A DNA stretch of 64,000 nucleotides from Pogonophryne albipinna (Eukaryota; Chordata; Actinopteri; Perciformes; Artedidraconidae). Below the pieces are notes generated by a model that had not been told where the DNA came from, ran no database searches, and was given only the letters and a program-made list of their open reading frames with translations. The number at the start of each line of letters is the position of its first letter. Positions within the stretch are counted from its first letter, which is position 1. A program made the translations under genes and the position numbers. Positions 674-62,545 of this stretch are shown here, one piece after another. The DNA lies in the NCBI GenBank assembly GCA_028583405.1, contig JAPTMU010000115.1, positions 114,501 through 178,500 of the forward strand, given 5' to 3'.

Positions 674-3307
674 CTAGTCGCTCATCGTCCCGTTGAACTT
701 TTCCTCGTCGCTCATCGTCCCGTTCAACATCTGGCCGTCTACTTTATGGGTATCCTGGAGTACTGAAAAAACATTTGTGTCATAAATGCTGGACGTCAAG
801 ATAATACATGATGTTCTCTAGACTGAAATCACAGCATGAATTCTTCTGTAATAGTTCCTCAATAAATCCTGTTTTTGTAAAAAATGAGCGATGTTGGAAG
901 TGAATTCAGCAACCTAACATTGATGCATTAACTTAAGACATGCAAGTGGTTTGTTTTAGCTCTTATACACAGGATTAGCTTGACATTGCTGTGTTTCAAA
1001 TGAATCCTACATATCACAGATTTCAGATCTTTTACACCACTTTTACGCAACACATTCTGTTGTCTTTTTGGTCTTTAGAACTCACCTTTGTGCTCATGCA
1101 GGACACCCCCCGTCGTGCCGTTGTTCTGCTGGACGCCCCGCGTCGTGCCGTTGTTCTGCTGGACGCCCCCCGTCGTGCCGTTGTTCTGCTGGACGGTGCC
1201 GTTGTTCTGCTGGACGGTGCCGTTGTTCTGCTGGACGCCCCCCGTCGTGCCGTTGTTCTGCTGGACGGTGCCGTTGTTCTGCTGGACGCCCCCCGTCGTG
1301 CCGTTGTTCTGCTGGACGCCCCCCGTCGTGCCGTTGTTCTGCTGGACGCCCCCCGTCGTGCCGTTGTTCTGCTGGACGGTGCCGTTGTTCTGCTGGACGC
1401 CCCCCGTCGTGCCGTTGTTCTGCTGGACGCCCCCCGTCGTGCCGTTGTTCTGCTGGACGGTGCCGTTGTTCTGCTGGACGGTGCCGTTGTTCTGCTGGAC
1501 GGTGCCGTTGTTCTGCTGGACGGTGCCGTTGTTCTGCTGGACGGTGCCGTTGTTCTGCTGGACGCCCCCCGTCGTGCCGTTGTTCTGCTGGACGCCCCCC
1601 GTCGTGCCGTTGTTCTGCTGGACGCCCCCCGTCGTGCCGTTGTTCTGCTGGACGCCCCCCGTCGTGCCGTTGTTCTGCTGGACGCCCCCCGTCGTTGCGT
1701 CGCCCCAAATGACAAACCGGTTCTGGACGTCCCCTGTCGTGGAGTCTACCCCAATGACGACCCATTTTTGGACATCCCCCTCCTTGGCCACTCCCCTAAC
1801 GACGACCCGGTTCTGGACAGCCTCTGCTGTGGCGGTTTCGCTAATGACGATCAGGTTCTGGACGCCCCCCGTCTTGGCTTTGTCCTTAATGATGACCAAG
1901 TTCTGGACGCCCCCCGCCGTGGCTTTTCCCCTAATGACGACCCGGTTCTGGACGTCCTCAGTTGTGGAGTTGCCTCCTATGATGACCCATTTTAGGTCAT
2001 GCCCCGCAGTGGAATTTCCCCTAATGACGACCCGGTTCTGGACGCCCCCCTCCGTGCCGTTGTCCCTCGTTACGACCTGGTTCTGGACATTTGTTGTCTC
2101 GTTGACGCTCTGGGGCTTTTGTTCAGGATTCTGGTGACTAGACGCATCAGCTTCCACGTCATTGGTTTCCAGTTGTACTGAAAGAAAGAAGGATTGACTA
2201 ACAAAATAAGAACCAAGAGAAATCACGTGATGTTATACGTCGACTGAAATCACAGCATGAATTGTTCTGTAGTTTTCTTTTAATTCTTGCTTTTTTTAAT
2301 GTGGCATTTAATAATATTGGGAGGGATGAAACCCTCTGTAATGATCACACATGCAGAGCACACAGTGAAATGTGTTCTCTGCTTTTAACCCTTCCTAGCA
2401 CCAGGAGTCTAGTACTAGGAGCAGTGGGCAGCTATTGCACAGCGCCCGGGGAGCAATGGGAGTAAGGGGGGGGGGGAAGGGGGTTTTTCCGGTGCCTTGC
2501 TCAAGGGCACCCCGGCAGGGCAGGAGGTGAACTAGGACCTCTCCAAGAATCAGTCCACACTCCATTTTTAGATCTGGTCAGGGACTTGAACCGGCGACCC
2601 TACGGCTCACAGTCCAATCCCCTACTGACTGAGCCACTGCCGGATTGAGGACTGTTTTTAAGATCAATTCTCAAAGTTAGTCAATTTGGCACGACATTTC
2701 TCAAACGCATGGCATCAACATGCACAATACATCATGGGATGGCCATCAAATACAAAAATCTTCCCAATTTCAAGTTTTTAAACCCAGTTTAAAGCATTAT
2801 CACCCCATAGTGTTCCTCAAGGGCTGGGTGTCAACTTGGTATAAGACGTACAGATATCATAAGGTTTTAAACCCTTTTATACACAGTTTAAATATCTTGA
2901 GTTCATCTTATATTTCCCAGCTTTCAGATCATTTTCACCACCTTAACACCGTTGACCTTTTAGCCTTTAGGGCTCACCTTCTCTAGCATCTTGGTCTAAC
3001 ATGGACTCCATCGACTGGAAAGGTGCAAAGGCTTTCTTTAAGGAGATCTCATTGGCAGACAGATCTGTAGGACACAGTATAATTAAAGGTTAGTGTCAGA
3101 CAGAGAGAAGAAACACTGCATAAAATCTAATGTTTTCAACTCTCAGTCTCCTCTGCAGCTTATATTCACCAGCTGGAAAACTGTGGACAGGAAACATGCT
3201 GTTAAATCAAACATTATTCCTTCATCTTCAACACAATTATCAAACAGGTAAATACCTCTGGCCAGACAAACAGTCAGCACACAGACGAGCATCCAAACAG
3301 CTGCCAT
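674..3307 (-). CDS. Secreted N-glycosylated repeat protein, NNGT type (hyosophorin-like), 4 exons
   Basis: Spliced minus-strand gene. Exon 1 is 3256-3307 (signal peptide MAAVWMLVCVLTVCLAR), exon 2 2978-3064, exon 3 1086-2177, exon 4 674-762. All junctions are GT-AG in phase 1, and the lengths sum to 1320 nt (439 residues). Exon 2 reads DLSANEISLKKAF and so on, a likely propeptide. Exon 3 begins VQLETNDVEADASSHQ, then has about nine degenerate repeats of roughly 15 residues (VQNRVVIRGNSTAGG-like), then about 22 copies of VQQNNGT or VQQNNGTTGG. Exon 4 adds two NGTMSD units before a TAG. Nearly every homogeneous repeat holds an N-G-T sequon. Known: fish egg hyosophorins are secreted tandem glycopeptide repeats stored in cortical alveoli. 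Inferred: this is such a protein. Exon 3 could instead read through its donor to a nearby TAA, giving a C-terminus ending HEHKGEF. Intron 2 (800 bp) holds a SINE. Confidence 0.8.
2325..2650 (-). mobile_element. tRNA-derived SINE in intron 2 of the NNGT gene
   Basis: On the minus strand the head resembles a tRNA. An A-box-like TGGCTCAGTCAGTAGG maps to plus-strand 2621-2636 and a B-box-like GGTTCAAGTCC to 2582-2592. The tail contains the 'ccttgctcaagggcac' motif (about 2494-2509) that is widespread in fish dispersed repeats, and a G-run at 2465-2476. The SINE is absent from the corresponding introns of the other array genes, so it inserted after they diverged. The outer limits are approximate. 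Confidence 0.6.
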
Positions 3308-4039
3308 CTCTGCAGTTTTCCAAGAGAGTGTTGCCTGAGCACCAGCCAGCTTTAAAGGAGGGAAACCTCCAGCAGCTGCTACTGATCAGCACTGATTGTC
3401 TCTCTGCACAGAGGAAAACACCATTTATCTGAGATTAAACTCTGAGAATGAGGAGTTTTTCATGGAGCTTGTTGTACATTTATGATTAGTAGAGACCATC
3501 ATTTTAAATTCACATTATGTTCAAATCAGTAAAAGAATATTGCATTTGAGAGGGTATAGCAACTACAACAAATAACAAGACCTCCCCCTGAAAAACAAAG
3601 ATCTGTATGAACATTTTATATTGTTGCCTAAAAACAATTTCACACAAGGTAAAAACTCTGAAAAAGTTATAGTAAATATCCAAAATATCCCTCCTCTTCA
3701 GAAAACAAAAAATTCAATTACAACATTTTACAACCCCCTTCCCTAAACACATAATTTGTAGAAGAGAAGAAAACAGGGTTATTTGAAAGCCTTCTTCCCG
3801 TCATGCCTCACCTAAAATACCTGATTGCTCATGAAACTTGCATTTTTAAGACGTAACAATAATGATGCTACGAAGAAACTAAAAATAAAATGCATAAAAA
3901 TAATTCTTTATGAATTCTTTTTAATTTTTTATGGGTATTTTTGCCTGAAGAGACACTTAGTGGTATAAATGAAATGGTGCGATTGTAGTGTTCCACAGAC
4001 ATGAAGTGAAAAATAAATGTCCTTTATCTTTCTTTCTAG
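3308..4039. other. Spacer between glycoprotein exon 1 and the fdxr fragment
   Basis: About 730 bp holding the upstream promoter region of the minus-strand gene and the former intron sequence preceding the fdxr penultimate exon. It recurs nearly unchanged at 10216-10947, 15843-16575, 25060-25791 and 37481-38209. No upstream fdxr exon is present, which shows the fdxr copies are fragments. No other gene is seen. Confidence 0.6.
3350..3356 (-). promoter_or_regulatory. TATA-like box of the NNGT gene
   Basis: TTTAAAG on the minus strand, 43-49 nt upstream of the ATG. This spacing predicts a 5' UTR of only about 20 nt. The same motif at the same distance precedes all seven complete genes. An E-box CAGCTG lies just upstream at 3373-3378. 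Confidence 0.5.
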
Positions 4040-6181
4040 GTCTCTACTGTAGTGGCTGGCTGAAAACAGACCCCACTGGTGTGATAGCGACCACTTTGAA
4101 CAATAGTTTTGACACGGTTCGATCCGTGCTGGAGGACATGGACTCTGGAACGTTGAACACATCGGCTGCGAAGCCGGGATCACAAAGCATCAACGCTCTG
4201 CTGGAAAACAGGTTCCTGATGACTGATGTTCAGGTGTATATCAGTATGTAGTGTCTCTACTTTAAAGAGTCCTCTCCTGCTGATGTTCAGGTGTATATCA
4301 GTATGTAGTGTCTCTACTTTAAAGAGTCCTCTCCTGCTGATGTTCAGGTGTATATCAGTATGTAGTGTCTCTACTTTAAAGAGTCCTCTCCTGCTGATGT
4401 TCAGGTGTATATCAGTATGTAGTGTCTCTACTTTAAAGAGTCCTCTCCAGCTGATGTTCAGGTGTATATCAGTATGTAGTGTCTCTACTTTAAAGAGTCC
4501 TCTCCCGCTGATGTTCAGGTGTATATCAGTATGTAGTGTCTCTACTTTAAAGAGTCCTCTCCTGCTGATGTTCAGGTGTATATCAGTATGTAGTGTCTCT
4601 ACTTTAAAGAGTCCTCTCCTGCTGATGTTCAGGTGTATATCAGTATGTAGTGTCTCTACTTTAAAGAGTCCTCTCCTGCTGATGTTCAGGTGTATATCAG
4701 TATGTAGTGTCTCTACTTTAAAGAGTCCTCTCCTGCTGATGTTCAGGTGTATATCAGTATGTAGTGTCTCTACTTTAAAGAGTCCTCTCCCGCTGATGTT
4801 CAGGTGTATATCAGTATGTAGTGTCTCTACTTTAAAGACTCCTCTCCTGCTGATGTTCAGGTGTATATCAGTATGTAGTGTCTCTACTTTAAAGAGTCCT
4901 CTCCTGCTGATGTTCAGGTGTATATCAGTATGTAGTGTCTCTACTTTAAAGAGTCCTCTCCTGCTGATATTCAGGTGTATTTCAGTATGTAGTGTCTCTA
5001 CTTTAAAGAGTCCTCTCCTGCTGATGTTCAGGTGTATATCAGTATGTAGTGTCTCTACTTTAAAGAGTCCTCTCCTGCTGATGTTCTGGTGTATTTCAGT
5101 ATGTAGTGTCTCTACTTTAAAGAGTCCTCTCCTGCTGATGTTCAGGTGTATATCAGTATGTAGTGTCTCTACTTTAAAGAGTCCTCTCCTGCTGATGTTC
5201 AGGTGTTTATCGGTATGTAGTTTCTCTACTTTAAAGAGTCCTCTCCTGCTGATGTTCAGGTGTATATCAGTATGTAGTGTCTCTACTTTAAAGAGTCCTC
5301 TCCTGCTGATGTTCAGGTGTATTTCAGTATGTAGTGTCTCTACTTTAAAGAGTCCTCTCCTGCTGATGTTCAGGTGTATTTCAGTATGTAGTGTCTCTAC
5401 TTTAAAGAGTCCTCTCCCGCTGATGTTCAGGTGTATATCAGTATGTAGTGTCTCTACTTTAAAGAGTCCTCTCCCGCTGATTTCCAGGTGTATATCAGTA
5501 TGTAGTGTCTCTACTTTAAAGAGTCCTCTCCTGCTGATGTTCAGGTGTATATCAGTATGTAGTGTCTCTACTTTAAAGAGTCCTCTCCCGCTGATTTCCA
5601 GGTGTATATCAGTATGTAGTGTCTCTACTTTAAAGAGTCCTCTCCTGCTGATGTTCAGGTGTATAGAGCTGTCCTGCCCCTTAGCCTAACACGTACAATG
5701 TGTTGGAGCGCTAGCCAATAGGAGCGTGAGTGTTTCATAGTGATGTGACTATGTTCTGGAAGTAAAGAAAGGAGTCCAATGTTTTTGGGAACCAGGAACA
5801 TAGCATGTATTTATCCCATAGGGCAAAAATGAGAGAATCTGATGGATAAAGTCAGATGTTATGCACTTAAGGACATTTTAGTCCTTAAAGGTCTTTCTCT
5901 GTGTGTTTGGGCTACACACTATATACTGATATTTAGAAATAAATAAATGTGCTATATGCCTTAAAACATAATTTAAGATCTAATCCGATTCCGAGGCTCA
6001 GGGTTAATTTAGTAAATGCATGTTACTGACTCTGATTTCGTGTCCTGCAGGAGTGAAACCAGTGACTTTCTCCGAGTGGGAGAAGATTGACAGTGAGGAA
6101 GTTCGGAGGGGGGCGGCGATCGGGAAACCCCGAGAAAAACTGCTGACTGTGGAGGAAATGCTACAGCTGGCTGGACAATAA
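4040..6181 (+). pseudogene. fdxr: fdxr terminal two exons, copy a (broken junction)
   Basis: Ferredoxin (adrenodoxin) reductase is the mitochondrial FAD enzyme passing electrons from NADPH to ferredoxin. Only its C-terminus is here. The penultimate exon, 4040-4211, encodes GLYCSGWLKTDPTGVIATT and so on. The last exon, 6051-6181, encodes [14 protein letters not shown] through [18 protein letters not shown], then TAA, with AATAAA at 6254-6259. Both match the conserved tail of vertebrate FDXR. The FAD- and NADPH-binding upstream exons are absent. The end of the first exon reads AACAG|GT where the other copies read AACAGAG|GT. This 2-nt loss would shift the last exon out of frame. The intron is almost entirely 57-bp minisatellite. 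Confidence 0.85.
4228..5664 (+). repeat. 57-bp minisatellite in the fdxr intron, about 25 copies
   Basis: Tandem units running gtgtatatcagtatgtagtg ... ctgatgttcag. Variants include ctgctgatttcc and cccgctgatg. Each unit ends in a pyrimidine-rich stretch, then TTCAG directly followed by GTGTAT. Because 57 is a multiple of 3 and the unit lacks stops in one frame, a long spurious reading frame spans the array. Confidence 0.95.
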
Positions 6182-7042: not shown

Positions 7043-10000
7043 TTATGGCAAAGATAAAAGCTCGATAATCGCTGTCTCGTTGACCCCGTCGTGGCGAACG
7101 TTATCCGTCCCGTTGACCTCGTCGTGGCGAACGTTATCCGTCTCGTTGATCCCGTCGTGGCGAACGGTATCCGTCTCGTTGATCCCGTCGTGGCGAACGG
7201 AATCCGTCTCGTTGATCCCGTCGTGGCGAACGGTATCCGTCTCGTTGACCCCGTCGCGGCGAACGTTATCCGTCTCGTTGATCCCGTCGTGGCGAACGGT
7301 ATCCGTCTCGTTGACCCCGTCGTGGCGAACGGTATCCGTCTCGTTGACCCCGTCGTGGCGACCGGTATCCGTCTCGTTGACCCCGTCGTGGCGACCGGTA
7401 TCCGTCTCGTTGACCCCGTCGTGGCGAACGTTATCCGTCTCGTTGATCCCGTCGTGGCGAACGTTATCCGTCTCGTTGATCCCGTCGTTGCGAACGGTAT
7501 CCTTCTCGTTGACCCCGTCGTTTCGAACGTTATCCGTCTCGTTGATCCCGTCGTGGCAAACGGTATCCGTCTCGTTGACCCAATCGTGGCGAACGGTATC
7601 CGTCTCGTTGACCCAATCGTGGCGACCGGTATCCGTCTCGTTGATCCAGTCGTGGCGACCGGTATCCGTCTCGTTGACCCAGTCGTGGCGAACGTTATGC
7701 GTCTCGTTGACCCCGTCGTGGCGAACGTTATGAGTCTCGTTGACCCCGTCGTGGCGAACGTTATCCGTCTCGTTGATCCCGTCGTGGCGAACGGTATCCT
7801 TCTCGTTGACCCAGTCGTTTCGAACGTTATCCGTCTCGTTGATCCCGTCGTGGCAAACGGTATCCGTCTCGTTGACCCAATCGTGGCGAACGGTATCCGT
7901 CTCGTTGACCCAATCGTGGCGACCGGTATCCGTCTCGTTGATCCAGTCGTGGCGACCGGTATCCGTCTCGTTGACCCAGTCGTGGCGAACGTTATGCGTC
8001 TCGTTGACCCCGTCGTGGCGAACGTTATGAGTCTCGTTGACCCCGTCGTTTCGAACGTTATCCGTCTCGTTGACCCAGTCGTGGCGAACGTTATCCGTCT
8101 CGTTGACCCAGTCGTGGCGAACGTTATCCGTCTCGTTGACCCAGTCGTGGCGAACGTTATCCGTCTCGTTGATCCCGTCGTGGCGAACGTTATCCGTCTC
8201 GTTGACCCAGTCGCGGCGGACGGTATCCGTCTCGTTGACCCAGTCGCGGCGGACGGTATCCGTCTCGTTGAACCCGTCGTGGCGAACGGTATCCGTCTCG
8301 TTGAACCCGTCGTGGCGACCGGTATCCGTCTCGTTGATCCAGTCGTGGCGACCGGTATCCGTCTCGTTGACCCAGTCGTGGCGAACGTTATGCGTCTCGT
8401 TGACCCCGTCGTGGCGAACGTTATGAGTCTCGTTGACCCCGTCGTTTCGAACGTTATCCGTCTCGTTGACCCAGTCGTGGCGAACGTTATCCGTCTCGTT
8501 GACCCAGTCGTGGCAAACGTTATCCGTCTCGTTGACCCAGTCGTGGCGAACGTTATCCGTCTCGTTGATCCCGTCGCGGCGGACGGTATCCGTCTCGTTG
8601 ACCCAGTCGCGGCGGACGGTATCCGTCTCGTTGAACCCGTCGTGTCGAACGTTATCCGTCTCGTTGACCCAGTCGTGGCGAACGTTATCCGTCTCGTTGA
8701 CCCAGTCGTGGCGAACGTTATCCGTCTCGTTGACCCAGTCGTGGCGAACGTTATCCGTCTCGTTGATCCCGTCGCGGCGGACGGTATCCGTCTCGTTGAC
8801 CCAGTCGTGGCGGACGGTATCCGTCTCGTTGAACCCGTCGTGGCGAACGTTATCCGTCTCGTTGAACCCGTCGTGGCGAACGTTATCAGTCTCGTTGACC
8901 CCGTCGTGGCGAACGTTATCCGTCTCGTTGACCCCGTCGTTTCGAATGTTATCCGTCTCCTTGAACCCGTCGTGGCGAACGTTATACGTCTCGTTGAACC
9001 CGTCGTGGCGAACGTTATCCGTCTCGTTGAACGCGTTGTGGCGAACTTTATCCGTCTCGTTGAACCCGTCGTGGCGAACGTTATCCGTCCCGTTGACCCC
9101 GTCGTGGCGAACGTTATCCGTCTCGTTGACCCCGTCGTGGCAAACGTTATCCGTCTCGTTGACCCCGTCGTGGCGAACGTTATCCGTCTCGTTGACCCCG
9201 TCGTGGCGAACGTTATCCGTCTCGTTGAACCCGTCGTGGCGAACGTTATCCGTCTCGTTGAACCCGTCGTGGCGAACGTTATCCGTCTCGTTGATCCCGT
9301 CGTGGCGAACGTTCTCCGTCTTGTTGATCCAGTCGTGGCGAACTTTCTGGTGACGTGACGCCTCAGCTTCCACTTCGTTGGTCTCCAGTTGAACTGAAAC
9401 AAATACCTTTCATTAAAAACTTTACAGAAATGTAATTAGTTTTTGCTTCAAGACTTTGTTCCTGTACTTTTTTTTTGTGTGAAAAAAGGCCATTTCATCG
9501 TGACGTCTGTAGTCAACAGATTATAAAAGACTACAATTACCACGGCACCTTCCTCTAAAAGTCTAAAGTGACAGAGATGGGCAACCTTTTTTGAACCGCT
9601 CAATTACCCTTTAAGTTATCAAGTTATACAAGCCTTAACAAAACAGCTTTTGGTAATTTGTTGTAGTTTAATTTTAAATAAATCATTTTGAAAATGTTTT
9701 TAAAGTTACTAAAACTGTGAGGCAAATTAAGTTTGGTGGCAATATTTCCCCTTTATACCTGTACTCGATTAAAATTGTTTTTAAAATGGCAAAGTACCTC
9801 AAAAGTCTTTTTAATATAGCATCTGTTGACTTTAACTTATCCCATGAAGATCAGTAAAAGAGAAAAGACATGACTCACCTTGGCCAGCGTCTCGCTCCAA
9901 CATGGACTCCATCGACTGGAAACGTTGAAAGGCTTTTTCTAAGGAGATCTCATTGGGAGACAGATCTGTAGGACACAGTATAATTAAAGGTTAGTGTCAG

Positions 10001-10215
10001 ACAGAGAGAAGAAACACTGCATAAAATCAAATGTTTTCAACTCTCAGTCTCCTCTGCAGCTTATATTCACCAGCTGGAAAACCAGAGACTGTGGACAGGA
10101 AACTTGCTGTTAAATCAAACATTATTCCTTCATCTTCAACACAATCATCAAACAGGTAAATACCTCTAGCCAGACAAACAGTCAGCACACAGACGAGCAT
10201 CCAAACAGCTGCCAT
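7043..10215 (-). CDS. Secreted N-glycosylated 11-residue-repeat protein, gene 2 (hyosophorin-like)
   Basis: Exon 1 is 10164-10215 (signal peptide), exon 2 9879-9965 (DLSPNEISLEKAFQRFQ and so on), exon 3 7043-9393. Introns are GT-AG of 198 and 485 bp, and the CDS totals 2490 nt (829 residues). Exon 3 starts VQLETNEVEAEASRHQK, then has 69 units of 11 residues with consensus VRHDG(V/I/F)NETDN, and ends NETAIIELLSLP. Almost every unit carries an N-E-T sequon (N-K-T in the first); a few have NEK and lose it. Variation is confined to a few columns: H/N, G/W, V/I/F and N/T. The stop TAA is followed at once by AATAAA, giving a very short 3' UTR. Inferred role: a multivalent glycopeptide precursor of the egg cortical alveolus. 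Other secreted mucin-like roles are possible. Confidence 0.85.
7060..9345 (-). repeat. 33-bp coding minisatellite with higher-order blocks (gene 2)
   Basis: About 69 copies of a 33-bp unit (minus strand AACGTTCGCCACGACGGG followed by (V/I/F)NETD codons). A marker pair of variants ('gttatgcgtctcg' then 'gttatgagtctcg') recurs with its second member at about 7729, 8026 and 8422. These spacings of 297 and 396 bp equal 9 and 12 units, so multi-unit blocks were duplicated. Confidence 0.9.
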
Positions 10216-10264: not shown

Positions 10265-10947
10265 GGAGGGAAACCTCCAGCAGCTGCTACTGATCAGCAC
10301 TGATTGTCTCTCTGCACAGAGGAAAACACCATTTCTCTGAGATTAAACTCTGAGAATGGGGAGTTTTTCATGGAGCTTGTTGTGCATTTATGATTAGTAG
10401 AGACCATCATTTTAAATTCACATTATGTTCAAATCAGTAAAAGAATATTGCATTTGAGAGGGTATAGCAACTACAACAAATAACAAGACCTCCCCCTGAA
10501 AAACAAAGATCTGTATTAACATTTTATATTGTTGCCTAAAAACTATTTCACACAAGGTAAAAACTCTGAAAAAGCTATAGTAAATATCCAAAATATCCCT
10601 CCTCTTCAGAAAACAAAAAATTCAATAACAACATTTTACAACCCCCTTCCCTAAACACATAATTTGTAGAAGAGAAGAAAACAGGGTTATTTGAAAGCCT
10701 TCTTCCTGTCATGCCTCACCTAAAATACCTGATTGCTCATGAAACTTGCATTTTTAAGACGTAACAATAATGATGCTACGAAGAAACTAAAAATAAAATG
10801 CATAAAAATAATTCTTTAGGAATTATTTTTCATTTTTTATGGGTATTTTTGCCTGAAGAGACACTTAGTGGTATAAATGAAATGGTGCGATTGTAGTGTT
10901 CCACAGACATGAAGTGAAAAATAAATGTCCTTTATCTTTCTTTCTAG

Positions 10948-12339
10948 GTCTCTACTGTAGTGGCTGGCTGAAAACAGACCCCACTGGTGTGATAGCGACC
11001 ACTTTGAACAATAGTTTTGACACGGTTCGATCCGTGCTGGAGGACATGGACTCTGGAACGTTGAACACATCGGCTGCGAAGCCGGGATCACAAAGCATCG
11101 ACGCTCTGCTGGACAACAGAGGTTCCTGCTGTCCCTTTAATTAATTTACACTGTGCTTCGATTAAAGTGGCCCTATTCTCCTCATTTTCAGGTGTTTATC
11201 GGTATGTAGTTTCTCTACTTTAAAGAGTCCTCTCCTGCTGATGTTCAGGTGTATATCAGTATGTAGTGTCTCTACTTTAAAGAGTCCTCTCCTGCTGATG
11301 TTCAGGTGTATATCAGTATGTAGTGTCTCTACTTTAAAGAGTCCTCTCCTGCTGATGTTCAGGTGTATATCAGTATGTAGTGTCTCTACTTTAAAGAGTC
11401 CTCTCCTGCTGATGTTCAGGTGTATATCAGTATGTAGTGTCTCTACTTTAAAGAGTCCTCTCCTGCTGATGTTCAGGTGTATATCAGTATGTAGTGTCTC
11501 TACTTTAAAGAGTCCTCTCCTGCTGATGTTCAGGTGTATATCAGTATGTAGTGTCTCTACTTTAAAGAGTCCTCTCCTGCTGATGTTCAGGTGTATATCA
11601 GTATGTAGTGTCTCTACTTTAAAGAGTCCTCTCCTGCTGATGTTCAGGTGTATATCAGTATGTAGTGTCTCTACTTTAAAGAGTCCTCTCCTGCTGATGT
11701 TCAGGTGTATATCAGTATGTAGTGTCTCTACTTTAAAGAGTCCTCTCCTGCTGATTTCCAGGTGTATATCAGTATGTAGTGTCTCTACTTTAAAGAGTCC
11801 TCTCCTGCTGATGTTCAGGTGTATAGAGCTGTCCTGCCCCTTAGCCTAACACGTACAATGTGTTGGAGCGCTATACAATAGGAGCGTGAGTGTTTCATAG
11901 TGATGTGACTATGTTCTGGAAGTAAACAAAGGAGTCCAATGTTTTTGGGAACCAGGAACAAAGCATGTATTTATCCCATAGGGCAAAAATGAGAGAATCT
12001 GATGGATAAAGTCAGATGTTATGCACTTAAGGACATTTTAGTCCTTAAAGGTCTTACTCTGTGTGTTTGGGCTACACACTATATACTGATATTTAGAAAT
12101 AAATAAATGTGCTATATGCCTTAAAACATAATTTAAGATCTAATCCGATTCCGAGGCTCAGGGTTAATTTAGTAAATGCATGTTACTGACTGATTTCGTG
12201 TCCTGCAGGAGTGAAACCAGTGACTTTCTCCGAGTGGGAGAAGATTGACAGTGAGGAAGTTCGGAGGGGGGCGGCGATCGGGAAACCCCGAGAAAAACTG
12301 CTGACTGTGGAGGAAATGCTACAGCTGGCTGGAAAATAA
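10948..12339 (+). pseudogene. fdxr: fdxr terminal two exons, copy b
   Basis: Penultimate exon 10948-11121 and last exon 12209-12339. Both are in frame with each other (joined as NRGVKPV) and end LQLAGK then TAA. The upstream gene body is missing, so no functional enzyme can be made from this copy. It differs from copy a in keeping the AACAGAG|GT exon end and in SIDALLDN instead of SINALLEN. The intron holds about 11 minisatellite units. Confidence 0.85.
11191..11824 (+). repeat. 57-bp minisatellite in fdxr copy b, about 11 copies
   Basis: The same unit as at 4228-5664 but shorter and more homogeneous. The first unit (tgtttatcggtatgtagttt) is a divergent edge unit shared with copies c, d and e. 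Confidence 0.95.
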
Positions 12340-13198: not shown

Positions 13199-15842
13199 TT
13201 ATGGCAAAGATAAAAGCTCGATAATCGCTGTCTCGTTGACCCCGTCGTGGCGAACGTTATCCGTCTCGTTGACTCCGTCGTGGCGAACGTTATCCGTCTC
13301 GTTGACCCCGTCGTGGCGAACGTTATCCGTCTCGTTGACCCCGTCGTGGCGAACGTTATCCGTCTCGTTGATCCCGTCGTGGCGAACGTTATCCATCTCG
13401 TTGACCCCATCGTGGCGAAGGTTATCCGTCTCGTTGATCCCGTCGTGGCGAAGGTTATCCGTCTCGTTGATCCCGTCGTGGCGAAGGCTATCCGTCTCGT
13501 TGATCCCGTCGTGGCGAACATTAACCGTCTCGTTGACACCGTCGTGGCGAACGTTATCCGTCTCGTTGAACCCCTCGTGGCGAACGGTATCCGTCTCGTT
13601 GATTCCGTCGTGGCGACCAGTATCCGTCTCGTTGACCCCGTCGTTGCGAACGTTATCCGTCTCGTTTACCCCGTCGTTTTGAACGTTTTCCGTCTCGTTG
13701 AACCCGTCGTGGCGAACGTTATCCGTCTCGTTGAACCCGTCGTGGCGAACGGTATCCGTCTCGTTGATTCCGTCGTGGCGACCGGTATCCATCTCGTTGA
13801 CCCCATCGTGGCGAACGTTATCCGTCTCGTTTACCCCGTCGTTTCGAACGTTTTCCGTCTCGTTGACCCCGTCGTGGCGAACTTTATCCGTCTCGTTGAC
13901 ACCGTCGTGGCGAACTTTATCCGTCTCGTTGACCCGGTCCTGGCGAACGTTATCCGTCTCGTTGATCCCGTCGTGGCGAATGTTATCCGTCTCGTTGATC
14001 CCGTCGTAGCGAACGTTATCCGTCTCGTTGATCCCGTCGTGGCGAACGTTATCCGTCTCGTTGATCCAGTCGTTTCGAACGTTATCCGTTTCGTTGACCC
14101 CGTCGTTTCGAACGTTAGCCGTCTCGTTGACCCCGTCGTGGCGAACGTTATCCGTCTCGTTGACCCAGTCGTGGCGAACTTTCTGGTGACGTGACGCCTC
14201 AGCTTCCACTTCGTTGGTCTCCAGTTGAACTGAAACAAATACCTTTCATTAAAAACTTTACAGAAATGTAATTAATTTTTGCTTCAAGACTCTGATCCTG
14301 TATTTTTTTTTGTTGTGAAAAAAGGCCATTTCATCGTGACGTCTGTAGTCAACAGATTATAAAAGACTACAATTACTGTTGAAGTGAAATATTTGTATGT
14401 ATTCATGTTAGCAAACTATGAATAAGCTTAAATGGGAAATAATCTGTGTAAAACCGTGAGCTGGATTCAGGGCCTGCTGACATGAGTTTTGGAGGACAAA
14501 GGGTGCTTGGAGTTAACAGGTTTTATTGCCCTGTGGGGGAGGTGTAGCTGGCAGGATGAGAGTTGGATGAGAGTTCCTTCTGCTTAAGATCTCCTGTATG
14601 TCATGTTTCAGGGAAGTCAACATATCTTGAATAGTATATGTGTGTGTTTGATTACTTTGTATTCATATGAGGGTATTAATATGTATTATCTTTGTGAATT
14701 AAGGGATACAGCTCAGGCCTCTGGAATGTGCAGGAAAGTGTGTGCGTGAAAGTCTATGCAGGAAAGATAACGGACGCCAGATACATTTTATTACCCTCAG
14801 AGACACTTGTTTATTATCTTGGCTGGCTCGCGCTGATTCGCTAAGAAAAGTCATCTTTTACATCATCCAATGAGATAGACTGACTCGGCTCCTCCGGTGA
14901 TTTGTGGGTATAAAAGGGGGGTTTGAAGTTAGTTCATTCTCTTTTCTCCTCTGGCTGGCTGCAGGTAATGTAGGGATCCCATAGATAGCTGTATTGAATT
15001 TGTACTGTATGTGATTGTATTGCATTGTCATATTACCATTAAAGTGGATTATTGTTTAACGATTACTTGGTAGCTCTGGATTCCTTCCTGTGTTTTTAAC
15101 CAGCTTGATAAGGACGCGCGGAGATTTGAAATGCGGAGAAGATATCGCTTCTAATCTCTAACATTACCACGGCACCTTCCTCTAAAAGTCTAAAGTGACA
15201 GAGATGGATAACCTTTTTTGAACCGCTCAATTACCCTTTAAGTTATCAAGTTATAGAAGCCTTAACAAAAGAGCTTTGGGTAATCTGTTGTAGTTTAATT
15301 TTAAATAAATCATTTTGAAAATGTTTTTAAAGTTACTAAAACTGTGAGGTAAATTAAGTTAGGTGGCAATATTTCCCCTTTATACCTGTACTCGATTACA
15401 ATTGTTTTTAAAATGGCAAAGTACCTCAAAAGTGTTTTTAATATAGCATCTGTTGACTTTAACTTATCCCATGAAGATCAGTAAAAGAGAAAAGACATGA
15501 CTCACCTTGGCCAGCGTCTCGCTCCAACATGGACTCCATCGACTGGAAAAGTTGAAAGGCTTTTTCTAAGGAGATCTCATTGGGAGACAGATCTGTAGGA
15601 CACAGTATAATTAAAGGTTAGTGTCAGACAGAGAGAAGAAACACTGCATAAAATCTAATGTTTTCAACTCTCAGTCTCCTCTGCAGCTTATATTCACCAG
15701 CTGGAAAACCAGAGACTGTGGACAGGAAACATGCTGTTAAATCAAACATTATTCCTTCATCTTCAACACAATTATCAAACAGGTAAATACCTCTGGCCAG
15801 ACAAACAGTCAGCACACAGACGAGCATCCAAACAGCTGCCAT
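13199..15842 (-). CDS. Secreted N-glycosylated 11-residue-repeat protein, gene 3 (hyosophorin-like)
   Basis: Exon 1 is 15791-15842, exon 2 15506-15592, exon 3 13199-14229, giving 1170 nt (389 residues). This is the shortest member, with 29 repeat units between the VQLETNEVEAEASRHQK head and the AIIELLSLP tail. Several units read NEMD and have lost the sequon; others read ANV, ENV or VNV in the N/T column. Intron 2 is 1276 bp because a solo LTR (787 bp) sits in it; without it the intron matches the 485 bp of the sister genes. The frame is intact throughout, and stop then AATAAA is conserved. Confidence 0.85.
14377..15163 (+). mobile_element. Solo LTR in intron 2 of gene 3
   Basis: A 787-bp insertion starting TGTTGAAGTG and ending TAACA, flanked by TTAC (ATTAC if 5 bp) on both sides where the other units have a single copy. 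It shares its first roughly 100 bp and last roughly 200 bp with the LTRs at 47961 and 54234, so it belongs to the same family, with a different middle. A TATAAAAG box lies at 14909-14916. A solo LTR arises by recombination between two LTRs of a full element. Confidence 0.85.
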
Positions 15843-15891: not shown

Positions 15892-16575
15892 GGAGGGAAA
15901 CCTCCAGCAGCTGCTACTGATCAGCACTGATTGTCTCTCTGCACAGAGGAAAACACAATTTATCTGAGATTAAACTCTGAGAATGAGGAGTTTTTCATGG
16001 AGCTTGTTGTGCATTTATGATTAGTAGAGACCATCATTTTAAATTCACATTATGTTCAAATCAGTAAAAGAATATTGCATTTGAGAGGGTATAGCAACTA
16101 CAACAAATAACAAGACCTCCCCCTGAAAAACAAAGATATGTATTAACATTTTATATTGTTGCCTAAAAACAATTTCACACAAGGTAAAAACTCTGAAAAA
16201 GTTATAGTAAATATCCAAAATATCCCTCCTCTTCAGAAAACAAAAACATTAAATTACAACATTTTACAACCCCCTTCCCTAAACACATAATTTGTAGAAG
16301 AGAAGAAAACAGGGTTATTTGAAAGCCTTCTTCCCGTCATGCCTCACCTAAAATACCTGATTGCTCATGAAACTTGCATTTTGAAGACGTAACAATAATG
16401 ATGCTACGAAGAAACTAAAAATAAAATGCAGAAAAATAATTCTTTATGAATTATTTTTCATTTTTTATGGGTATTTTTGCCTGAAGAGACACTTAGTGGT
16501 ATAAATGAAATGGTGCGATTGTAGTGTTCCACAGACATGAAGTGAAAAATAAATGTCCTTTATCTTTCTTTCTAG

Positions 16576-17627
16576 GTCTCTACTGTAGTGGCTGGCTGAA
16601 AACAGACCCCACTGGTGTGATAGCGACCACTTTGAACAATAGTTTTGACACGGTTCGATCCGTGCTGGAGGACATGGACTCTGGAACGTTGAACACATCG
16701 GCTGTGAAGCCGGGATCACAAAGCATCAACGCTCTGCTGGAAAACAGAGGTTCCTGCTGTCCCTTTAATTAATTTACACTGTGCTTCGATTAAAGTGGCC
16801 CTATTCTCCTCATTTTCAGGTGTTTATCGGTATGTAGTTTCTCTACTTTAAAGAGTCCTCTCCTGCTGATGTTCAGGTGTATATCAGTATGTAGTGTCTC
16901 TACTTTAAAGAGTCCTCTCCTGCTGATGTTCAGGTCTATTTCAGTATGTAGTGTCTCTACTTTAAAGAGTCCTCTCCTGCTGATGTTCAGGTGTATATCA
17001 GTATGTAGTGTCTCTACTTTAAAGAGTCCTCTCCCGCTGATTTCCAGGTGTATATCAGTATGTAGTGTCTCTACTTTAAAGAGTCCTCTCCTGCTGATGT
17101 TCAGGTGTATAGAGCTGTCCTGCCCCTTAGCCTAACACGTACAATGTGTTGGAGCGCTAGCCAATAGGAGCGTGAGTGTTTCATAGTGATGTGACTATGT
17201 TCTGGAAGTAAACAAAGGAGTCCAATGTTTTTGGGAACCAGGAACATAGCATGTATTTATCCCATAGGGCAAAAATGAGAGAATCTGATGGATAAAGTCA
17301 GATGTTATGCACTTAAGGACATTTTAGTCCTTAAAGGTCTTACTCTGTGTGTTTGGGCTACACACTATATACTGATATTTAGAAATAAATAAATGTGCTA
17401 TATGCCTTAAAACATAATTTAAGATCTAATCCGATTCCGAGGCTCAGGGTTAATTTAGTAAATGCATGTTACTGACTCTGATTTCGTGTCCTGCAGGAGT
17501 GAAACCAGTGACTTTCTCCGAGTGGGAGAAGATTGACAGTGAGGAAGTTCGGAGGGGGGCGGCGATCGGGAAACCCCGAGAAAAACTGCTGACTGTGGAG
17601 GAAATGCTACAGCTGGCTGGAAAATAA
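16576..17627 (+). pseudogene. fdxr: fdxr terminal two exons, copy c
   Basis: Penultimate exon 16576-16749 and last exon 17497-17627, in frame with each other and ending LQLAGK. One substitution gives SAVKPGSQ where the other copies have SAAKPGSQ. The intron is short, with about 5 minisatellite units. The upstream fdxr exons are absent, as in the other copies. Confidence 0.85.
16819..17108 (+). repeat. 57-bp minisatellite in fdxr copy c, about 5 copies
   Basis: The smallest of the five arrays, retaining the divergent first unit and the terminal gtgtatagagctgtcc edge found in all copies. Confidence 0.95.
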
Positions 17628-37529: not shown

Positions 37530-38209
37530 GGAGGGAAACCTCCAGCAGCTGCTACTGATCAGCACTGATTGTCTCTCTGCACAGAGGAAAACACCATTTC
37601 TCTGAGATTAAACTCTGAGAATGAGGAGTTTTTCATGGAGCTTGTTGTACATTTATGATTAGTAGAGACCATCATTTTAAATTCACATTATGTTCAAATC
37701 AGTAAAAGAATATTGCATTTGAGAGGGTATAGCAACGACAACAAATAACAAGACCTCCCCCTGAAAAACCAAGATCTGTATTAACATTTTATATTGTTGC
37801 CTAAAAACAATTTCACACAAGGTAAAAACTCTGAAAAAGTTATAGTAAATATCCAAAATATCCCTCCTCTTCAGAAAACAAAAAATTAAATAACATTTTA
37901 CAACCCCCTTCCCTAAACACATAATTTGTAGAAGAGAAGAATACAGGGTTATTTGAAAGCCTTCTTCCTGTCATGCCTCACCTAAAATACCTGATTGCTC
38001 ATGAAACTTGCATTTTTAAGACGTAACAATAATGATGCTACGAAGAAACTAAAAATAAAATGCATAAAAATAATTCTTTATGAATTCTTTTTAATTTTTT
38101 ATGGGTATTTTTGCCTGAAGAGACACTTAGTGGTATAAATGAAATGGTGTGATTGTAGTGTTCCACAGACATGAAGTGAAAAATAAATGTCCTTTATCTT
38201 TCTTTCTAG

Positions 38210-42167: not shown

Positions 42168-44913
42168 TTATGGCAAAGATAAAAGCTCAATAATCGCCGT
42201 CTCGTTGACCCCGTCGTGGCGAATGCTATCCGTCTCGTTGACCCAGTCGTGGCGAACGCTATCCGTCTCGTTGAACCTGTCGTGGCGAACGTTATCCGTC
42301 TCGTTGATCCCGTCGTGGCGAACGTTATCCGTCTCGTTGATCCCGTCGTGGCGAACGCTATCCGTCTCGTTGATCCCGTCGTGGCGAACGCTATCCGTCT
42401 CGTTGATCCCGTCGTGGCGAACGCTATCCGTCTCGTTGAACCCGTCGTGGCGAACGTTATCCGTCTCGTTGAGCCAGTCGTTTCGAACGTTATCCGTCTC
42501 GTTGACCCAGTCGTGGCGAACGTTATCCGTCTCGTTGACCCAGTCGTTTCGAACGTTATCCGTCTCGTTGACCCAGTCGTTTCGAACGTTATCCGTCTCG
42601 TTGACCCAGTCGTTTCGAACGTTATCCGTCTCGTTGACCCAGTCGTGGCGAACGTTATCCGTCTCGTTGACCCAGTCGTTTCGAACGCTATCCGTCTCGT
42701 TGACCCAGTCGTTTCGAACGCTATCCGTCTCGTTGACCCAGTCGTGGCGAACGTTATCCGTCTCTTTGACCCAGTCGTTTCGAACGTTATCCGTCTCGTT
42801 GACCCAGTCGTTTCGAACGTTATCCGTCTCGTTGACCCAGTCGTTTCGAACGCTATCTGTCTCGTTGACCCCGTCGTGGCGAACGCTATCCGTCTCGTTG
42901 ACCCCGTCGTGGCGATCGTTATCCGTCTCGTTGATCCAGTCGTGGCGAACGCTATCCGTCTCGTTGACCCCGTCGTGGCGAACGTTATCCGTCTCGTTGA
43001 TCCCGTCGTGGCGAACGCTATCCGTCTCGTTGATCCCGTCGTGGCGAACGCTATCCGTCTCGTTGATCCCGTCGTGGCGAACGTTATCCGTCTCGTTGAT
43101 CCCGTCGTGGCGAACGCTATCCGTCGCGTTGACCCCGTCGTGGCGAACGTTATCCGTCTCGTTGATCCAGTCGTGGCGAACGTTATCCGTCTCGTTGAAC
43201 CCGTCGTGGCGAACGTTATCCGTCTCGTTGAACCCGTCGTGGCGAACGTTATCCGTCTCGTTGAACCCGTCGTGGCGAACGTTATCCGTCTCGTTGAACC
43301 CGTCGTGGCGAACGTTATCCGTCTCGTTGATCCAGTCGTGGCGAACGTTATCCGTCTCGTTGATCCAGTCGTGGCGAACGTTATCCGTCTCGTTGACCGC
43401 GTCGTGGCGAACGTTATCCGTCTCGTTGACCGCGTAGTGGCGAACGTTATCCGTCTCGTTGAACCCGTCGTGGCGAACGTTATCCGTCTCGTTGAACCCG
43501 TCGTGGCGAACGTTATCCGTCTCGTTGAACCCGTCGTGGCGAACGTTATCCGTCTCGTTGATCCAGTCGTGGCGAACGTTATCCGTCTCGTTGACCGCGT
43601 CGTGGCGAACGTTATCCGTCTCGTTGACCGCGTCGTGGCGAACGTTATCCGTCTCGTTGAACCCGTAGTGGCGAACGTTATCCGTCTCGTTGAACCCGTA
43701 GTGGCGAACGTTATCCGTCTCGTTCATCCCGTCGTGGCGAACGTTATCCGTCTCGTTGAACCAGTCGTGGCGAACGTTATCCGTCTCGTTGAACCAGTCG
43801 TGGCGAACGTTATCCGTCTCGTTGACCCCGTCGTGGCGAACGTTATCCGTCTCGTTGATCCCGTCGTGGCGAACTTTATCCGTCTCGTTCATCCCGTCGT
43901 GGCGAACGTTATCCGTCTCGTGGAACCCGTCATGGCGAACGTTATCCGTCTCGTTGATCCCGTCGTGGCGAACGTTCTCCGTCTCGTTGATCCGGTCGTG
44001 GCGAATGTTCTCCGTCTTGTTGATCCAGTCGTGGCGAACTTTCTGGTGACGTGACGCCTCAGCTTCCACTTCATTGGTTTCCAGTTGAACTGAAACAAAT
44101 ACCTTTCATTAAAAACTTTACAGAAATGTAATTAATTTTAGCTTCAAGACTTTGATCCTGCTATTTTTTTTTGTTGTGAAAAAAGGCCATTTCATCGTGA
44201 CGTCTGTAGTCCACAGATTATAGAAGACTACAATTACCACAGCACCTTCCTCTAAAAGTCTAAAGTGACAGAGATGGGCAACCTTTTTTGAACCGCTCAA
44301 TTACCCTTTAAGTTATCAAGTTATACAAGCCTTAACAAAACAGCTTTTGGTAATCTGTTGTAGTTTAATTTTAAATAAATCATTTTGAAAATGTTTTTAA
44401 AGTTACTAAAACTGTGAGGTAAATTAAGTTAGGTGGCAATATTTCCCCTTTATACCTGTACTCGATTACAATTGTTTTTAAAATGGCAAAGTACCTCAAA
44501 AGTGTTTTTAATATAGCATCTGTTGACTTTAACTTATCCCATGAAGATCAGTAAAAGAGAAAAGACATGACTCACCTTGGCCAGCGTCTCGCTCCAACAT
44601 GGACTCCATCGACTGGAAAAGTTGAAAGGCTTTTTCTAAGGAGATCTCATTGGGAGACAGATCTGTAGGACACAGTATAATTAAAGGTTAGTGTCAGACA
44701 GAGAGAAGAAACACTGCATAAAATCTAATGTTTTCAACTCTCAGTCTCCTCTGCAGCTTATATTCACCAGCTGGAAAACCAGAGACTGTGGACAGGAAAC
44801 ATGCTGTTAAATCAAACATTATTCCTTCATCTTCAACACAATTATCAAAGAGGGTAAATACCTCTGGCCAGACAAACAGTCAGCACACAGACGAGCATCC
44901 AAACAGCTGCCAT
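42168..44913 (-). CDS. Secreted N-glycosylated 11-residue-repeat protein, gene 6 (hyosophorin-like)
   Basis: Exon 1 is 44862-44913, exon 2 44576-44662, exon 3 42168-44089, giving 2061 nt (686 residues) and 56 repeat units. Characteristic variants are RHYG, RHDA and an S in the N/T column (NETDSVRHDG); one unit reads FHETDN and lacks the sequon. Exon 3 starts VQLETNEVEAEASRHQK and ends AIIELLSLP. In exon 1 the intron begins with a 1-nt longer stretch (aaagagggtaaat), shared only with gene 8, indicating that genes 6 and 8 are close relatives. Confidence 0.85.
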
Positions 44914-48531: not shown

Positions 48532-48534
48532 ATA

Positions 48535-54804: not shown

Positions 54805-54808
54805 ATGT

Positions 54809-57851: not shown

Positions 57852-58996
57852 CTAGTCGCTCATCGTCCCGTTGAACTTTTCCTCGTCGCTCATCGTCCCG
57901 TTCAACATCTGGCCGTCTACTTTATGGGTATCCTGGAGTACTGAAAAAACATTTGTGTCATAAATGCTGGACGTCAAGATAATACATGATGTTCTCTAGA
58001 CTGAAATCACAGCATGAATTCTTCTGTAATAGTTCCTCAATAAATCCTGTTTTTGTAAAAAATGAGCGATGTTGGAAGTGAATTCAGCAACCAAACATTG
58101 ATGCATTAACTTAAGACATGCAAGTGGTTTGTTTTAGCTCTTATACACAGGATTAGCTTGACATTGCTGTGTTTCAAATGAATCCTACATATCACAGATT
58201 TCAGATCTTTTACACCACTTTTATGCAACACATTCTGTTGTCTTTTTGGTCTTTAGAACTCACCTTTGTGCTCATGCAGGACACCCCCCGTCGTGCCGTT
58301 GTTCTGCTGGACGCCCCCCGTCGTGCCGTTGTTCTGCTGGACGCCCCCGGTCGTGCCGTTGTTCTGCTGGACGCCCCCCGTCGTGCCGTTGTTCTGCTGG
58401 ACGGTGCCGTTGTTCTGCTGGACGGTGCCGTTGTTCTGCTGGACGCCCCCCGTCGTGCCGTTGTTCTGCTGGACGGTGCCGTTGTTCTGCTGGACGCCCC
58501 CCGTCGTGCCGTTGTTCTGCTGGACTCCCCCCGTCGTGCCGTTGTTCTGCTGGACGCCCCCCGTCGTGCCGTTGTTCTGCTGGACGCCCCCCGTCGTGCC
58601 GTTGTTCTGCTGGACGGTGCCGTTGTTCTGCTGGACGCTCCCCGTCGTGCCGTTGTTCTGCTGGACGCCCCCCGTCGTGCCGTTGTTCTGCTGGACGCCC
58701 CCCGTCATGCCGTTGTTCTGCTGGACGCCCCCCGTCGTGCCGTTGTTCTGCTGGACGCCCCCCGTCGTGCCGTTGTTCTGCTGGACGCCCCCCGTCGTTG
58801 CGTCGCCCCAAATGACAAACCGGTTCTGGACGTCCCCTGTCGTGGAGTCTACCCCAATGACGACCCATTTTTGGACATCCCCCTCCTTGGCCACTCCCCT
58901 AACGACGACCCGGTTCTGGACAGCCTCTGCTGTGGCGGTTTCGCTAATGACGATCAGGTTCTGGACGCCCCCCGTCTTGGCTTTGTCCTTAATGAT
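57852..58996 (-). pseudogene. Truncated NNGT-type glycoprotein gene (gene 7)
   Basis: Exon 4 (57852-57940) and the 3' part of exon 3 (58264-58996) match the gene at 674-3307, including the splice donor and the two NGTMSD units. It has about 18 VQQNNGT units in a different order. Exon 3 is cut at 58996, where the sequence switches abruptly to the fdxr stop-codon region (ggaaaataacctg). The head of exon 3, exon 2, exon 1 and the promoter are gone, so no secreted product is expected. Confidence 0.85.
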
Positions 58997-59866
58997 GGAA
59001 AATAACCTGAAGACGACAACATTTCATACCGTCCTGTCTGGGATCAATGACAGAAATAATTACATTAAATTATACGTAATAAAAGCTATTAGGTACTGCA
59101 GTTTACCCGTTAAAGCTTTTAGTTTTCGTTCAACTTCCAATCAATCCAAAGCACTGAAAAACTAAGTTTCCTGACGTGCCAACATTAAAGACAATTCTCT
59201 ATTAGATGCTATACATAATGAACTCCACTCGAATATAATGTATGTATTTTAAAAAGGTAAACTTCATTATTTTTCAACCCCAAATTTATAATTGGTTCAG
59301 TATTGAGTGAGAGTTACCGTTCAAATGTTTATTTCAGGGTATCTTTGCTCTAAAGAGCCCCCATTATGCTTTTTGTTGCTTTCATAATACTGGACTCATT
59401 TCAAAAACTGTTTCCCCAAAAGACATGGGACACTGTTCAGGAAAAATACTGAAGTTTCTCTTTAGAAGAGTAATGACTGCTTGGGGACCAAATTACATTT
59501 TGCAAGTGTTTGCACTGAAACAGATATTTTATGAATAAATCATGATTTATATCCTTTCCGTCTTGAAGGAGCATTTCTTTCCATTGCATTTTAAATATTT
59601 AGGTCTACGGAAATTTTGTAAAAGAAAACCCTAAATACAGATTCTATAAGTTCTGTCCACTGGTCTAAAAGATGACATGTTATTGAACAAAAAGAATCCA
59701 AGTTTGACTAATGGATTAAAAAAAACTGATGTTTTACCAGCAGTTCCATCACATTTGAATATTAAGGACATTTTAAAGCAGAAATACACTAATAGTATAA
59801 GATGCTCTAAAATCAAACGTTTTGATATTTGGAAAAGAAAACAGATTTATTAATGAAAGTTTTATT
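58997..59866. other. Convergent 3' spacer with only the fdxr stop and 3' UTR
   Basis: Starts with the last bases of the fdxr coding region (GGAAAATAA) and then follows the standard spacer. No fdxr exon precedes it. It ends at the polyadenylation signal of gene 8. Confidence 0.7.
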
Positions 59867-62545
59867 TTATGGCAAAGATAAAAGCTCGATAATCGCTGTC
59901 TCGTTGACCCTGTCGTGGCGAACGTTATCCGTCCCGTTGACCCCGTCGTGGCGAACGTTATCCGTCCCGTTGACCCCGTCGTGGCGAACGTTATCCGTCT
60001 CGTTGATCCCGTCGTGGCGAACGGTATCCGTCTCGTTGATCCCGTCGTGGCGAACGGAATCCGTCTCGTTGATCCCGTCGTGGCGAACGGTATCCGTCTC
60101 GTTGACCCCGTCGTGGCGAACGGTATCCGTCTCTTTGACACCGTCGTGGCGAACGTTATCCGTCTCGTTGATCCCGTCGTGGCGAACGGTATCCGTCTCG
60201 TTGACCCCGTCGTGGCGAACGTTATCCGTCTCGTTGATCCCGTCGTGGCGAACGTTATCCGTCTCGTTGATCCCGTCGTGGCGAACGGTATCCTTCTCGT
60301 TGACCCAGTCGTGGCGAACGTTATCCGTCTCGTTGACCCAGTCGTTTCGAACGTTATCCGTCTCGTTGATCCCGTCGTGGCGAACGTTATCCGTCTCGTT
60401 GACCCAGTCGTTTCGAACGTTATCCGTCTCGTTGATCCCGTCGTGGCAAACGTTATCCGTCTCGTTGATCCCGTCGTGGCGAACGGTATCCGTCTCGTTG
60501 ATCCCGTCGTGGCGAACGGTATCCGTCTCGTTGACCCAATCGTGGCGACCGGTATCCGTCTCGTTGATCCAGTCGTGGCGAACGTTATCCGTCTCGTTGA
60601 CCCCGTCGTGGCGAACGTTATCCGTCTCGTTGAACCCGTCGTGGCGAACGTTATCCGTCTCGTTGACCCCGTCGTGGCGAACGTTATAAGTCTCGTTTAC
60701 CCCGTCGTTTCGAACGTTTTCCGTCTCGTTGACCCAGTCGTGGCGAACGTTATAAGTCTCGTTTACCCCGTCGTTTCGAAAGTTTTCCGTCTCGTTGACC
60801 CAGTCGTGGCGAACGTTATACGTCTCGTTTACCCCGTCGTTTCGAACGTTATCCGTCTCGTTGACCCAGTCGTGGCGAACGTTATACGTCTCGTTTACCC
60901 CGTCGTGTCGAACGTTTTCCGTCTCGTTGACCCCGTCGTGGCGAACGTTATACGTCTCGTTTACCCCGTCGTGTCGAACGTTTTCCGTCTCGTTGACCCC
61001 GTCGTGGCGAACGTTATACGTCTCGTTTACCCCGTCGTTTCGAACGTTTTCCGTCTCGTTGACCCAGTCGTGGCGAACGTTATACATCTCGTTTACCCCG
61101 TCGTTTCGAACGTTATCCGTCTCGTTGACCCAGTCGTGGCGAACGTTATACGTCTCGTTTACCCCGTCGTTTCGAACGTTTTCCGTCTCGTTGACCCCGT
61201 CGTGGCGAACGTTATCCGTCTCGTTGAACCCGTCGTGGCGAACGTTATCCGTCTCGTTGACCCCGTCGTGGCGAACGTTATCCGTCTCGTTGACCCAGTC
61301 GTTTCGAACGTTATCCGTCTCGTTGACCCAGTCGTGGCGAACGTTATCCGTCTCGTTGATCCCGTCGTGGCGAACGGTATCCGTCTCGTTGATCCAGTCG
61401 TGGCGAACGGTATCCGTCTCGTTGACCCAGTCGTGGCGAACGGTATCCGTCTCGTTGACCCAGTCGTGGCGAACGGTATCCGTCTCGTTGACCCAGTCGT
61501 GGCGAACGGTATCCGTCTCGTTGACCCAGTCGTGGCGAACGGTATCCGTCTCGTTGAACCCGTCGTGGCGAACGTTATCCGTCTCGTTGAACCCATCGTG
61601 GCGAACGTTATCTGTCTCGTTGATCCAGTCGTGGCGAACGTTCTCCGTCTTGTTGATCCAGTCGTGGCGAACTTTCTGGTGACGTGTCGCCTCAGCTTCC
61701 ACTTCGTTTGTCTCCAGTTGAACTGAAACAAATACCTTTCATTAAAAACTTTACAGAAATGTAATTAATTTTTGCTTCAAGACTCTGATCCTGTATTTTT
61801 TTTTTTTGTGAAAAAAGGCCATTTCATCGTGACGTCTGTAGTCAACAGATTATAGAAGACTACAATTACCATGGCACCTTCCTCTAAAAGTCTAAAGTGA
61901 CAGAGATGGGCAACCTTTTTTGAACCGCTCAATTACCCTTTAAGTTATCAAGTTATACAAGCCTTAACAAAACAGCTTTTGGTAATCTGTTGTAGTTTAA
62001 TTTTAAATAAATCATTTTGAAAATGTTTTTAAAGTTACTAAAACTGTGAGGTAAATTAAGTTAGGTGGCAATATTTCCCCTTTATACCTGTACTCGATTA
62101 CAATTGTTTTTAAAATGGCAAAGTACCTCAAAAGTGTTTTTAATATAGCATCTGTTGACTTTAACTTATCCCATGAAGATAAGTAAAAGAGAAAAGACAT
62201 GACTCACCTTGGCCAGCGTCTCGCTCCAACATGGACTCCATCGACTGGAAAAGTTGAAAGGCTTTTTCTAAGGAGATCTCATTGGGAGACAGATCTGTAG
62301 GACACAGTATAATTAAAGGTTAGTGTCAGACAGAGAGAAGAAACACTGCATAAAATCAAATGTTTTCAACTCTCAGTTTCCTCTGCAGCTTATATTCACC
62401 AGCTGGAAAACCAGAGACTGTGGACAGGAAACATGCTATTAAATCAAACATTATTCCTTCATCTTCAAAACAATTATCAAAGAGGGTAAATACCTCTGGC
62501 CAGACAAACAGTCAGCACACAGACGAGCATCCAAACAGCTGCCAT
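59867..62545 (-). CDS. Secreted N-glycosylated 11-residue-repeat protein, gene 8 (hyosophorin-like)
   Basis: Exon 1 is 62494-62545, exon 2 62208-62294, exon 3 59867-61722, giving 1995 nt (664 residues) and 54 repeat units. The centre (about 60690-61190) is a 22-residue higher-order repeat: one 11-mer with Y in the D column (NETYNVRHD) alternates with one having E (NETENVRND), about seven to eight times. This is the only member with this pattern. The head reads MEAEATRHQK and the tail AIIELLSLP. The frame is intact. Upstream it shares the THAP-repeat flank with gene 6. Confidence 0.85.

Follow-up and report, generated by a model that had tools for sequence, protein, structure and literature searches.

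A stretch of 64,000 nucleotides from the fish Pogonophryne albipinna (GenBank assembly GCA_028583405.1, contig JAPTMU010000115.1, positions 114,501 to 178,500 of the forward strand; referred to here as the window) contains, on its minus strand, seven related genes in tandem, each of which consists of leader exons and a repeat exon. Judged from the sequence, the cluster probably encodes secreted polyproteins made of N-glycopeptides, in a tandem gene family built on the hyosophorin plan. Hyosophorins are cortical-alveolus glycoproteins that consist of tandem repeats of one peptide and contain 80-90% carbohydrate (excerpt of PMC3528131); a second source, likewise in excerpt, describes hyosophorin as a cortical-alveolus polyprotein that is proteolysed at the cortical reaction and is more than 90% glycan (PMC12753239). 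The original prediction had proposed a multigene hyosophorin locus or a new family of the same design; its gene models hold, as do the apparently secreted character of the products and the single N-glycosylation sequon in each short repeat unit, and the hyosophorin type of the cluster is retained as probable. The most interesting part of the locus is that one leader carries two different N-glycan-type repeats, an 11-mer in six genes (G1-G6) and a 10/7-mer in the seventh (B1). Added here to the first observation are coding exons of FDXR (adrenodoxin reductase) within the duplicated block, a 5.15-kb insert in G4, and a truncated eighth copy.

The seven genes, all of which were found in the predicted span between the stop codon at 674 and the ATG at 62545, are the following.

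674..3307, minus strand: B1; exons 3307-3256, 3064-2978, 2177-1086 and 762-674; 439 residues; 28 sequons
7043..10215, minus strand: G1; exons 10215-10164, 9965-9879 and 9393-7043; 829 residues; 69 units, 66 with sequon
13199..15842, minus strand: G2; exons 15842-15791, 15592-15506 and 14229-13199; 389 residues; 29 units, 27 with sequon
22680..25059, minus strand: G3; exons 25059-25008, 24809-24723 and 24238-22680; 565 residues; 45 units, 45 with sequon
28842..37480, minus strand: G4; exons 37480-37429, 32074-31988 and 31501-28842; 932 residues; 78 units, 76 with in-register sequon
42168..44913, minus strand: G5; exons 44913-44862, 44662-44576 and 44089-42168; 686 residues; 56 units, 54 with sequon
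59867..62545, minus strand: G6; exons 62545-62494, 62294-62208 and 61722-59867; 664 residues; 54 units, 51 with sequon

The shared signal-peptide-like exon, second exon, phase-1 GT-AG junctions and repeat exon are as predicted, and the open reading frames of 389 to 932 residues are correct in length and coordinates. Exon 1 is 52 nt and exon 2 is 87 nt long in every gene, and introns 1 and 2 are invariably GT-AG introns in phase 1. The 62-residue leader is present in seven copies: exon 1 encodes MAAVWMLVCVLTVCLAR, exon 2 encodes DLSPNEISLEKAFQLFQSMESMLERDAGQ or variants thereof, and exon 3 opens with VQLETNEVEAEASRHQ or a variant, followed by the repeats. The N-terminus, MAAVWMLVCVLTVCLA, is hydrophobic in all seven genes, so that exon 1 is signal-peptide-like, and the products look secreted. 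The short second exon is predicted, with low confidence, to be helical; single-sequence structure prediction for G2 yielded a mean predicted local distance difference test score (pLDDT) of 49 and is not interpretable except for a low-confidence helix in the leader. At the other end, all six 11-mer arrays finish with AIIELLSLP or AIIKLLSLP and TAA, and AATAAA immediately follows the stop codon.

Several comparisons among the paralogues suggest that the seven loci are probably real genes. When codons 18-62 of the leader of B1 are compared with those of five G genes (all but G3), the ratio of nonsynonymous to synonymous substitution rates (dN/dS) is 0.36-0.56, with dS of 0.23-0.38 and dN of 0.13-0.14, whereas intron 2 has decayed to the point that 55-57% of the aligned positions differ between B1 and the G genes, that is, it is unalignable. 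All seven genes have the same sequence over the 110 bp that precede the ATG, compared with 28 variable positions among 553 elsewhere in the G genes, a contrast with a Fisher p of 0.006. The 553 positions were taken from intron 1 (all G genes but G4), from the 3' flank and from the first part of intron 2, whose last part, with 15 of 187 positions variable, was left out. The opposite view, that the arrays are non-coding or decaying minisatellites that are open by chance, draws on the fact that the 33-bp consensus unit is free of stops in four of six frames, which makes the open frame of the arrays weak evidence; moreover, a presumably non-coding 57-bp array in an FDXR intron is likewise without indels (0%) at each of its five locations, so that frame alone proves little. 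We nevertheless consider this view highly improbable, given that the leaders join the arrays in phase in seven of seven genes, that dN/dS is below 1 next to a decayed intron 2, that the same short tail and stop close all six G arrays, and that the proximal promoter is unchanged across the seven genes.

Two of the features expected of a hyosophorin, tandem repetition of one short peptide and one N-glycosylation site per unit, the latter in the form of sequons, are both found in this cluster. The six G genes contain 331 units (69+29+45+78+56+54) with the consensus VRHDGVNETDN, and an N-x-S/T sequon is in register in 319 of these, which bears out the predicted count of about 331 units, nearly all with a sequon; the number of sequons per product is 27-77. 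In B1, a sequon is present in each of the 22 VQQNNGT units, with 3 more in the degenerate rows that precede them. The alternative of a polysialoglycoprotein (PSGP), a 13-residue unit with O-linked polysialic acid, does not describe these genes, in which the units are 11, 10 and 7 residues long and carry N-sequons. The net charge of the six 11-mer products at pH 7, computed without glycans, ranges from -57 to -135.

Position 2 of the 11-mer unit is arginine in 322 of the 331 units. This regularity could be read as the signature of a peptide-precursor polyprotein, hormone- or defence-like, that frees bioactive 11-mers at the repeated arginine. Such a function seems most improbable, considering that the arginine is single, without a dibasic site, that the sequon occupies the middle of the unit, and that B1, which shares the leader, has arginine in only 1 of its 22 VQQNNGT units. 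Under the hyosophorin interpretation, the same arginine would be a possible cutting site in the 11-mer genes.

The repeat exon of B1 (exon 3) starts with eight degenerate rows, of which seven are 15 residues long and the other 30; the 22 VQQNNGT units that follow comprise 13 10-mers (one ending in TRG) and 9 7-mers. In the four-exon model, B1 stops at 674 (439 residues), and without the third intron, reading on leads to a stop at 1075 (413 residues); the present data favour neither model. An apparent relic of the 11-mer at the start of exon 3 (QKPQSVNETTN) was rejected as unsupported, its score being equalled by 2271 of 5000 shuffles and by 3106 of 5000 sequon-preserving shuffles. When B1 is compared with the G genes (G4 left out), intron 1 differs by 1.5% and exon 2 by 15%, which suggests that the 5' part of B1 was probably homogenised with the others and that the remainder is an older paralogue. 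We tentatively suggest, as a possibility that falls somewhat short of even, that hyosophorin-type genes evolve with the leader and promoter held constant while the repeat cassette is swapped whole and one sugar site per unit is kept. Whole-repeat replacement would explain the existence of unrelated-looking repeat peptides among fishes.

The 331 units of the 11-mer genes represent 123 types at the DNA level and 101 at the protein level. The longest repeated run of identical units within a gene is 7 (G3), followed by 6 (G1 and G4), and is 1 in G2; between genes, such runs do not exceed 4. In each of the six genes, adjacent units resemble each other more, on average, than do unit pairs taken overall (the significance of this difference was not computed). 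These patterns are consistent with units having been duplicated locally in most of the arrays and exchanged between genes to a limited extent. For the analysis of variants, 324 of the 331 units were used, the six last units and one odd unit of G4 having been dropped. Sequon-breaking changes account for 11 copies over 13 possible types, with a maximum of 4 copies, compared with 529 copies over 64 types (maximum 113) for other replacement changes and 106 copies over 21 types for silent changes. Outside the sequon, replacement variation is as frequent as silent variation (two-sided p 0.58), so that only part of the 11-mer unit seems to be constrained.

A number of observations weigh against the hyosophorin assignment or against the evidence of constraint on which it draws. 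By description, the units of a hyosophorin are identical to one another; those found here are similar, with the 101 amino acid types already mentioned. Sequon-breaking changes are only weakly depleted (uncorrected one-sided p values of 0.04 and 0.03), and the arginine at position 2 (315 of 324 units) and aspartate at position 4 (318) are about as conserved as the asparagine at position 7 (320) and the threonine or serine at position 9 (317). B1 is nearly neutral, with a net charge of -4.8 at pH 7 in the three-exon model; therefore, not all seven products are strongly acidic. Among the five genes compared, the stretch from -240 to -181 is equally free of variation, as is part of an FDXR exon, so that the promoter is not alone in varying little, and recent homogenisation could account for the invariant 110 bp. 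Finally, searches with the first 120 residues found no Pfam match above the cut-off for either G2 or B1 and no PDB match for G2. Apart from these points, a search of viral contigs with the same part of G2 returned 7 pattern matches and 0 confirmed relatives, and a full-text literature query with the repeat peptides gave no match, an uninformative outcome, as two control repeats of known type also gave none.

By analogy, the genes are likely to work like a hyosophorin. In the growing oocyte, the repeat chain would enter the secretory pathway, one N-glycan would be added to each unit, and the glycosylated product would be stored in cortical alveoli; at fertilisation, it would be released and cut into glycopeptides that are kept inside the chorion, where they would draw water in and cause the perivitelline space to swell. 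A comparable course is described for PSGP, which is cleaved at fertilisation, with osmotic swelling of the perivitelline space (excerpt of PMC3528131). Tandem duplication of the genes would raise dosage, and unequal exchange would change the number of units. It is also conceivable, although unlikely, that the products, secreted N-glycan repeat proteins built in the same way, serve outside cortical alveoli, for instance, in mucus, blood or seminal fluid: the sequence names no tissue, and the leader has no known domain. The fish repeat glycoproteins encountered in the literature excerpts are egg proteins, but the search was itself directed at eggs, so this is a biased lead rather than a test.

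The cluster can be set beside several known systems. The N-glycan hyosophorins of medaka and flounder share with the cluster the tandem short peptide, with a large N-glycan per unit in those fishes and sequons here; the medaka unit is a nonapeptide, in contrast to units of 11 and 10/7 residues with a different sequence in this case. Salmonid PSGP, too, is a repeat polyprotein, published as being depolymerised at fertilisation, but its unit has 13 residues and bears O-linked polysialic acid, whereas the cluster genes have N-sequons. The cod egg sialoglycopeptide Gm-SGPP is short and bears a single N-glycan at Asn-Gly-Thr, which is also the sequon of B1, although the flanking residues differ. 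As in the present cluster, PSGP is encoded by a multigene family in which the repeat number varies; a literature search on this family gave nothing useful among the papers listed. A carp hyosophorin was reportedly cloned by Tsao in 1999. If the genes described here are expressed in eggs, they would provide a genomic locus, gene models and, in FDXR, a landmark for seeking N-glycan hyosophorin genes in other fishes, and candidate substrates could be named at the gene level for the recently identified fish acid PNGase (excerpt of PMC12753239). The presence of two glycan-repeat cassettes on one leader within one cluster makes repeat replacement, along with change in unit number by unequal exchange, directly amenable to study.

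Five copies (u1-u5) of the two final FDXR coding exons, identified by a match to PDB 1cjc (E 4.9e-25), lie on the plus strand as part of the duplicated block. These copies, together with the eighth copy of the repeat gene, are the following.

4039..6178, plus strand: FDXR u1, penultimate and last coding exons; the end of the first of these is 2 bp short compared with the other four copies, frame-shifted
10947..12336, plus strand: FDXR u2, penultimate and last coding exons, frame intact
16575..17624, plus strand: FDXR u3, penultimate and last coding exons, frame intact
25791..27980, plus strand: FDXR u4, penultimate and last coding exons, the last exon frameshifted
38209..39372, plus strand: FDXR u5, penultimate and last coding exons, frame intact
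58253..59023, minus strand: B2, a 5'-truncated copy of the B1 repeat exon, fused directly to the FDXR 3' end

The intron between the two FDXR exons contains the 57-bp minisatellite, in about 25, 11, 5, 25 and 7 copies (u1 to u5, respectively). An intact FDXR gene in the window was sought and rejected: tblastn with human FDXR yielded the last two exons only, five times, the other matches having E values of at least 2 and being noise. Because u1 and u4 are frame-shifted, the copies are probably passengers of the duplication; no other FDXR exon was found in the window. No FDXR exons were found upstream of G5 and G6, and no leader exons beside the truncated B2. The fusion of B2 with FDXR is what illegitimate or unequal exchange would leave. 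Positions 1-1096 and 57179-58274, which cover the 3' ends of B1 and B2, are 99.2% identical, and 44040-46382 and 61673-64000 are 96.9% identical; given these near-identical stretches, the cluster may extend past the window. In a literature search that combined FDXR with hyosophorin and related terms, FDXR did not occur among the matches listed.

Two of the genes contain inserts. Intron 1 of G4 is 5,354 bp long because of the 5.15-kb insert, which has the following position.

32104..37253, no strand assigned: insert in G4 intron 1, 5.15 kb, with 6 bp of target repeated at its ends

Within it are a 5' fragment of 18S ribosomal RNA (34559-34964, plus strand; the match level is just "eukaryote") and tandem repeats of 113 and 115 bp, and the insert is possibly derived from ribosomal DNA. 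Intron 2 of G2, at 1,276 bp, contains an insert of about 0.79 kb. Part of a 574-bp direct repeat (47960-48533 and 54233-54806, 99.5% identity) is about 90% like 14962-15158 within this G2 insert. An element resembling a long interspersed nuclear element, with endonuclease and reverse transcriptase in two overlapping open reading frames, occupies 17937-22038; its flanks duplicate about 98 bp of target, seemingly far more than is usual for a target-site duplication. Tandem doublets of 73 bp occur at 45228-45373, 55796-55938 and 62861-63006, embedded in a 470-bp element at 45166-45635 and 62799-63268 and, inverted, at 55534-56003.

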